In this document: piece after piece, positions 4,331 through 5,740 of the stretch | Layout of the letters: each line of letters starts with the position of its first letter | How positions within the stretch are numbered: the stretch's first letter is position 1 | Assembly (NCBI RefSeq): GCF_000293865.2 | Contig: NZ_ALKN02000001.1 | Span: 124,001 to 188,000, forward strand | DNA from: Limnohabitans sp. Rim28 | GTDB lineage: Bacteria > Pseudomonadota > Gammaproteobacteria > Burkholderiales > Burkholderiaceae_C | Length of the DNA stretch: 64,000 bases | Direction: 5' to 3' | Notes under the pieces: model-generated | Seen by the model: only the letters and a program-made list of their open reading frames with translations | Database searches by the model: none | Told to the model about the DNA's origin: nothing | Position numbers and translations under genes: made by a program

Positions 4331-5740
4331 TCAGGGCTTGAAGTGTCGCACAGCCGCCTGCGCGATCGCCCTGCCCTGCTCCTGCACAAAGTGGCCCGCA
4401 TGGGGCAACAACATGGGCTCTGGGCAACCCTTGATCTGGCTTTGCAACTGGCGCATCACGGGCTCCCCCAAAACCGGGTCTTGCTGGCCAATGGCCATGA
4501 ACGTTTGGCCTTGCCAGACGGTGCGCCAAAAAGCCTCGGCTTCTCGTGAGATGGCTGCGCCGGGTGAATCAGCCAACTCCGGCACCATGGGCGGAAAAGC
4601 TCTGAGCGCGGCACGAAAACCTTTGTCCGGAAACGGGGCGTTGTAGGCGGCTGTCTCAGCAGGCGTCATGTCCGGGTTGCCGCGTTTGAACAACTTGCCC
4701 ACATCGAACTGCGGCTGGCTTTGGCACCAGTCACGCCAAGCCAGAAAACCGGCGCTCAATGGCTGCTCGCCCGTGGCCAAGGTGGTGTTCATGACCAGCA
4801 GGCCTTGATAACGTTTGGGCGCGGCCATGGGCAAGGTCAGGCCGAGAATGCCGCCCCAGTCCTGCACCACCAGCACCACGCGCTGCAAATCCAGTTGCTC
4901 GATCAACTCCAGTAGCGACTGGCGGTGGGTGTCAAATTGATGGAAATCATCCTTCTTGGGCTTGTCGCTCTTGCCAAAACCCATCAGATCGGGCGCCACC
5001 ACGCGGTGCCCCGCAGCCAGCCAGACCGGGATCATCTTGCGGTAAAGGTAACTCCAGGCCGGATTGCCATGAAGGCACAACCAGGTCAACGCGGCGTCCT
5101 TTGGGCCTTCGTCCAGGTAATGCATGCGCAGTCCGGCGATGCTGGGCAAATGGTGGACATAGTGAGCTTGCCAAGGGTAATCGGGCAAATCGGCAAACGC
5201 TGCATCGGGCGTACGCAGCGCGTCTTCGCGCACGGGGTCGGGATTCACGCGCCGGGTTTTGAAAAAGTCTTTGAGCAACTGGCCGCATTCCTCGGCCAGC
5301 ACGCCACCGGAGACTTGCGTCTGGTGGTTCAACTGCGCGTGGTCAAACAGATTCAGCACCGAACCCGCCACACCGGTTCGCGGATCGGACGCGCCGAAAA
5401 CCACTCTGTCCACCCTGGCGTGCAACATGGCGCCGCTGCACATGGCGCAGGGCTCCAGCGTCACATACAAGGTGCAGCCATCGAGCCGGTAGTTGCCCAG
5501 CATGCGCGCAGCTTCGCGCAGAGCCACCACCTCCGCATGCGCCGTGGGGTCGTGGTGGGCGATCGGCGCGTTGCGGCCTGTGGCGATGACCTGTCCGTCC
5601 TTGACGACCACTGCGCCCACGGGCACTTCGCCTGAAAGGGCCGCCAGTTGCGCCTGTGCTAAGGCCAAGCGCATGCCTTGCTCATCGGTCATCAGTGGGC
5701 GATCAAGGTCGTTATGGAGGCGTTGCTTGGGCAGATTCAT
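4331..5740 (-). CDS. tadA: TadA tRNA adenosine deaminase fused to a haloalkane-dehalogenase-like hydrolase
   Basis: One 469-residue frame holds two enzymes. Residues 15-165 are TadA, which deaminates A34 to inosine in tRNA-Arg(ACG). It carries the zinc and catalytic residues His68 and Glu70 (HAE) and Cys98 and Cys101 (PCAMC). Residues 172-469 are an alpha/beta hydrolase very like haloalkane dehalogenase DhlA: HGNP at 224-227, nucleophile Asp294 with Trp295 in VVQDWGG, a probable acid Asp421 in [11 protein letters not shown] and His450 in GHFVQE. No Met lies between residues 105 and 206, but a GTG at codon 165 (base 5248) could start the hydrolase separately. The TadA half must be essential. 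The hydrolase substrate is unknown. It leads into ldcA and follows the sugar dehydrogenase gene by 43 bases. Confidence 0.9.

Follow-up and report, generated by a model that had tools for sequence, protein, structure and literature searches.

TadA fused in frame to a DhlA-type haloalkane dehalogenase in Limnohabitans and related bacteria, with catalytic residues lost in several lineages

The described systems closest to the locus reported here are TadA of E. coli (PDB code 1z3a) for its NH2-terminal half and, for its COOH-terminal half, the subfamily I haloalkane dehalogenases (HLDs) DhlA (1b6g) and DppA of Plesiocystis pacifica (2xt0). The expected substrate of TadA is tRNA-Arg(ACG). Subfamily III of the HLDs is characterized by an Asn-Trp halide pair without a cap Trp, and subfamily I is said, in a 2007 classification by Chovancova, to combine Asp-His-Asp with two Trp halide residues. 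Residues Trp125, Trp175, and Phe172 of DhlA are named in PMC8197811, and the PDB titles of two DhlA mutants read 'Phe 172 replaced with Trp' (1hde) and 'Trp 175 replaced by Tyr' (1bee). For DhmeA, an enzyme of subfamily III, PMC10503415 names N63 and W130 as halide-binding residues and reports an Asp as the acid. A literature search, mostly outside subscription journals, found no paper on a TadA-HLD fusion.

The window analyzed, a stretch of 64,000 nucleotides from Limnohabitans sp. Rim28, contains one open frame that encodes both TadA and the hydrolase, as the initial annotation had claimed. The features of the fused gene and its downstream neighbor are as follows; dead tails are those of collected fusions that lack the nucleophile or the catalytic base.

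4331..5740, minus strand: fused tadA-HLD coding sequence, 469 amino acids, ATG to stop
5243..5692, minus strand: TadA domain, residues 17-166, with zinc site H68, E70, C98, C101 (PRK10860 match)
5225..5248, minus strand: linker, residues 165-172; V165 is the GTG at 5246-5248, the commonest ATG place of relatives and presumed old HLD start
4340..5224, minus strand: HLD domain, residues 173-467 (PRK00870; Foldseek)
5207..5236, minus strand: segment 169-178, a similar motif being retained in 42 of 51 dead tails
5063..5065, minus strand: Asn226, at the position of DhlA Glu56 (alignment with DhlA)
4952..4993, minus strand: segment 250-263, with an SDKPKK-like motif retained in 50 of 51 dead tails
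4856..4861, minus strand: nucleophile Asp294 and first halide residue Trp295 (alignment with DhlA)
4736..4738, minus strand: second halide residue Trp335, the cap Trp, corresponding to DhlA Trp175 (alignment with DhlA)
4607..4639, minus strand: segment 368-378, with a similar motif in 40 of the 51 dead tails; in dead pairs, residues 366-384 have a dN/dS of 0.14
4478..4480, minus strand: catalytic acid Asp421 (alignment with DhlA)
4391..4393, minus strand: catalytic base His450 (alignment with DhlA)
3406..4317, minus strand: ldcA (LD-carboxypeptidase), downstream neighbor (Pfam S66; start chosen at the Met of MAHIY)

Each half scored above the cut-off of its NCBIfam model: 206.1 bits against a cut-off of 150 for the TadA half with PRK10860, and 333 bits against 265 for the HLD half with PRK00870, to which DhlA presumably belongs. 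Scores of the fusion with PRK03592 (125.6 bits, cut-off 241) and PRK03204 (89.4 bits, cut-off 466) were far below. The NH2-terminal half shares its zinc-site residues, fold, and length with E. coli TadA, from which the window protein differs by an extra COOH-terminal extension of 303 residues. The hydrolase half was confirmed to resemble DhlA over its whole length, matching 1b6g and 2xt0 throughout, and the reported absence of Met between residues 105 and 206 was also borne out (Met positions ...100, 105, 206...). With the AF2 model as query, 2xt0 was the top Foldseek match (57% identity, TM-score by target of 0.91), and 1z3a ranked 46th. The model has a pLDDT of <50 at residues 164-175 and a pTM of 0.64, as would be the case for two domains without a fixed orientation; low pLDDT at residues 254-262 and 372-378 may stem from the input of 41 related sequences. 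The product in the window would be mainly one polypeptide, with the two halves acting independently by means of a flexible linker.

The upstream neighbor of the fusion is a glucose/sorbosone dehydrogenase gene, and among the 163 tadA loci that we collected, 151 have ldcA downstream in the same orientation. Elsewhere in the window, a gene of the Tannase/feruloyl esterase family is located at 7104-8837 (plus strand), and genes for a HepT-like ribonuclease and a nucleotidyltransferase, resembling a HEPN-MNT toxin-antitoxin pair, adjoin guaA at 10502-11172 (minus strand).

Matches to PF14437 were found twice in the genome, the second in a frame of 386 amino acids whose sequence reads as RibD; the fusion is thus, by this reading, the sole TadA of the genome. 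It has the zinc site HAE...PCxxC and a score above the equivalog cut-off, and the HECC residues of this site are retained in all 163 collected loci. A tRNA family search, with 30 of 40 matches scanned, detected a tRNA-Arg(ACG) in the genome (L280), although a pattern search for this tRNA gave no match. The NH2-terminal half would deaminate A34 of tRNA-Arg(ACG).

The initial annotation had read the hydrolase as an enzyme with the body of subfamily I and the pentad of subfamily III. We aligned it with DhlA and DppA. In the alignment with 1b6g, with residue numbers counted, DhlA W175 (the Trp of GFTAW) lies opposite W335 of GFLAW in the window and DhlA F172 opposite F332, the numbering being confirmed by the mutant 1hde, which has W at position 172. 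A MAFFT alignment placed the E, D, W, W, D, and H residues of DhlA and DppA with N226, D294, W295, W335, D421, and H450, respectively, and the column of W335 holds W in both enzymes. The placement of the cap Trp at Gly354 was a misalignment, this glycine being opposite a DhlA Trp other than residue 175, that of KRWAP; the alignment check proposed with that annotation restored the cap Trp as W335, an assignment that derives from sequence alignments. D294, W295, D421, and H450 are where they had been placed in the frame translation. The Asn at residue 226, where DhlA has Glu, is likewise real, yet it is common in standalone relatives too: among 12 standalone HLDs of the family (L080-L091), 10 have HGNP and two HGQP. 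In 103 intact fusions, residue 226 is N in 97, and Q in three, with single cases of E, H, and G.

Of the mixed pentad, the Asn therefore stands, and its attribution to subfamily III does not. D294, H450, D421, W295, and W335 are all present, in a protein above the PRK00870 cut-off, and because both halide Trp residues are there, the pentad is D294-H450-D421 with W295 and W335, the subfamily I set. An Asn-Trp pair without a cap Trp, as expected of subfamily III, was not found, and we rejected that reading since W335 occupies the position of DhlA W175. As judged from the alignments, the window HLD is a subfamily I pentad plus an additional Asn226. It resembles DppA and DhlA throughout the COOH-terminal half, in Asp-His-Asp, and in both halide Trp residues, but differs from them in having Asn226 for Glu and in its position behind TadA. 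With DhmeA, as described in PMC10503415, it shares Asn and Trp at the halide-binding positions and the Asp acid, but has Trp335 of the cap in addition to what DhmeA-like subfamily III enzymes have. The COOH-terminal half would be a hydrolase with an aspartate nucleophile and a probably halogenated substrate.

The breadth of the two-domain order was also examined, and this arrangement proved to be widely kept, being present in numerous members of the window's family and in a second family of the same taxonomic order, f3. Within the genus, 36 genomes were searched and 32 gave a near full-length match; of the other four, one carries the match in two contig pieces, one has it up to residue 299 only, and two drafts (84% complete) have none. 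Within the window's family, 167 of 399 genomes matched at E 1e-100, and at least 101 of the 399 span at least residues 25-441 among the matches listed, the other listed matches being shortened fusions or an HLD alone. Of the 231 family genomes lacking a match at this threshold, 80 were searched at 1e-40; the match reached at least residue 282 in 20, ended at 212 or 218 in two, ended by about residue 198 in 48, and was absent in 10. Because the TadA match ends there, TadA manages without a tail in the 48. The fusion is thus common but not universal in the family. In other families of the order it was found in one of 24 genomes (G037). A search of the order at 1e-90 matched 38 of 399 genomes, and outside the family both domains are spanned in four, all of f3, whereas the match is confined to the HLD part in 24. 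Matches were obtained in six of 274 genomes of the class at 1e-80 and in 13 of 299 of the phylum, with those outside the family (three and six, respectively) all in the HLD part only. The scan of named loci, which kept the closest, showed an in-frame fusion in 80 of 80, and 75 of these passed a motif check for DW, the cap GFxxW, and GHF; L231 and L252 lack GHF, and L248 runs off its contig. In L251, from a Hydrogenophaga bin, QDWGG is normal but the fusion frame ends further on, in the cap region, by frameshift or recent loss.

The joint frame, the intact state of both active sites in the window, and the same fusion in many relatives are observed. We consider these data to represent, with a probability of roughly 0.68, a natural gene fusion, of tadA and a dehalogenase gene of the DhlA type, upstream of ldcA and expressed mainly as one polypeptide whose halves are independent, with catalytic loss in several lineages. 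Loss of the stop codon of tadA is the probable origin of the fusion, the HLD start at first being retained inside the frame; because of this retention, internal starts are plausible in many relatives. Catalytic residues would then have been lost in several lineages and the remaining tail retained. A quick tree suggested separate f1 and f3 fusion events, but a tree holding the f1 and f3 fusions together was 28 log units higher (p-AU 0.895), and a careful tree of 44 rows left its base unresolved as to one or two fusions.

Standalone enzymes were also inspected. In L083, within the region 699-5120, the HLD gene lies between a thiolase gene and genes for a 4HBT thioesterase and an acyl-CoA dehydrogenase, and by eye the upstream ends of several other loci among L082-L091 are similar; the L083 context hints at a fatty-acid setting for the parent HLD enzyme. 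Genome G100 has an intact standalone HLD (L080, 2607-3575) and a separate tadA (G100:C118:14350-15264) that matches only up to residue 285.

For the 163 loci, full and shortened rows were both chosen; the collection is not random, and the shares given here are not population shares. Fusions retaining D294, W295, W335, D421, and H450 number 103 (99 of the family and four of f3), and 53 lack at least one of these five residues. D294 or H450 is missing in 51 of the 53, and W295 is replaced in the other two. The remaining seven loci encode TadA with a tail of 30-54 residues and no dehalogenase. On a quick tree of TadA plus LdcA for the 151 loci with ldcA following, the label intact or not intact changed 20 times, at least nine of these changes being forced by supported (starred) branches; the dead label changed 18 times, at least eight on starred branches, and presence of the nucleophile 15 times, none of these counts carrying a direction. 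The f3 fusions and standalone enzymes suggest that the intact state is ancestral. What is new here includes this repeated change to a tail that is dead as a catalyst but remains constrained in some of its parts.

Parts of the dead tails are specifically retained. Among the 51, an SDKPKK-like motif was present in 50, a GFGKSDKP-like motif in 43, the linker motif in 42, and a PFPDxGHRA-like motif in 40, compared with a mean of ≤0.12 for each retained motif in shuffled tails; a COOH-terminal AVEYF-like motif was present in 27 and GHF in eight, with QDWGG and GFxxW in none. We estimated dN/dS from 10 close pairs per class, picked by hand and with gapped columns excluded. Most were tree sisters, the exceptions being L062/L078 and L049/L103, and L071/L151 belongs to the 53 but not to the 51. 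For dead pairs, the values were 0.17 for TadA, 0.33 (0.28-0.38) for residues 168-292, 0.14 (0.08-0.20) for residues 366-384 (APFPD), 0.53 for 293-365, and 0.49 for 385 to the end. The corresponding values for intact pairs were 0.18, 0.15, 0.05, 0.16, and 0.21, with 0.16 for the whole intact tail against 0.18 for TadA; both halves are thus under selection in intact relatives. All pairs of dead tails under a distance limit, whose values are not independent, were more relaxed than the hand-picked pairs (linker, 0.40; 191-292, 0.53; APFPD, 0.29; 293-372, 0.79; COOH-terminus, 0.68; TadA, 0.36), and we therefore hold the overall explanation slightly less firmly.

By these values, the dead tail is still under purifying selection and for that reason is probably a structural appendix of TadA, which may either just keep TadA soluble or have a noncatalytic role, for example in contacts with tRNA or in dimer contacts. 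A passive relic, with no function of its own and soluble only because misfolding would harm an essential TadA, is a serious contender that we place somewhat short of even odds. Such a relic would fit deletion or relaxation of the cap and COOH-terminal half (dN/dS of about 0.5), the seven loci with short tails and no dehalogenase, and the fact that a tail merely required not to misfold would also give a dN/dS of <1. The specificity of the retained segments, of which the SDKPKK-like motif persists across several separate changes, speaks against it, as does the APFPD segment, which in close pairs is as constrained as TadA itself.

The annotation had also proposed that the hydrolase might be made separately from a GTG at base 5248. 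This codon is present, as that of V165, and we scanned family fusions with a readable anchor (97 of 99 intact, 50 of 51 dead) for an in-frame ATG within 14 codons before PLRxD. Such an ATG, close to where the HLD gene presumably once began, was found in 47 of 97 intact and none of 50 dead fusions, most commonly at the fourth codon before PLRxD, where the window has its GTG. An ATG with a Shine-Dalgarno sequence occurred in 23 fusions, versus a mean of 13.7 (sd 2.1) in synonymous shuffles, none of 300 of which was as high. An internal ATG with a Shine-Dalgarno sequence of 5-6 bases was present in all four f3 fusions examined, and an ATG in 36 of 74 of the named set, 11 with a Shine-Dalgarno sequence. 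These data from relatives indirectly favor two products, the full fusion and a separate catalytic dehalogenase whose internal start would be an ATG in relatives and GTG 5248 in the window, a possibility that we nonetheless regard as unlikely. No Shine-Dalgarno sequence precedes GTG 5248, and genomes of the same genus have ATC (L009, L033) or GTC (L023, L025-L027, L029) at this place. Furthermore, 50 of the 97 intact fusions lack the ATG, and the excess for any start codon with a Shine-Dalgarno sequence is small (31 vs 25.5, with 14 of 300 shuffles as high), these counts including near-copies.

A TTG ten codons before the GTG, inside the end of TadA, does have a Shine-Dalgarno sequence of four bases. 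Absence of the ATG from dead tails is to be read against their composition: because they are Met-poor in general (Met share, 0.9% vs 3.0%), only about five Met would be expected in 550 dead linker residues. After a split by GC3, dead tails had no ATG in each class. Among eight independent pairs on starred branches, about two linked ATG and activity in the same way and none in the opposite way, a result that is not significant with so few pairs. The ATG of relatives is most simply explained as the codon at which the dehalogenase gene formerly began, and the codon context makes one joint product likelier in the window.

We give less credence again to the HLD half having been captured as an RNA-contacting or dimer-stabilizing module of TadA, in which catalysis was dispensable and which decayed repeatedly to a shorter pseudo-dehalogenase retaining its NH2-terminal part with SDKPKK and the APFPDxGHRA segment; if true, an enzyme of tRNA editing would here carry a pseudoenzyme domain. 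That two genes were joined by an error of assembly or frame has a negligible chance of being correct, no point in its support having been found and a joint frame being present in 156 of the 163 collected and all 80 named loci, which refutes it and excludes the sequencing error envisaged by the annotation.

In a common family of bacteria, the natural fusion that we favor ties a hydrolase of the catabolic type to a housekeeping modification of tRNA. Repeated loss of catalytic residues within an essential gene provides a natural experiment on the retention of fused domains. Family models name the two halves separately, and a survey of pollutant breakdown could count dead tails as active dehalogenases.
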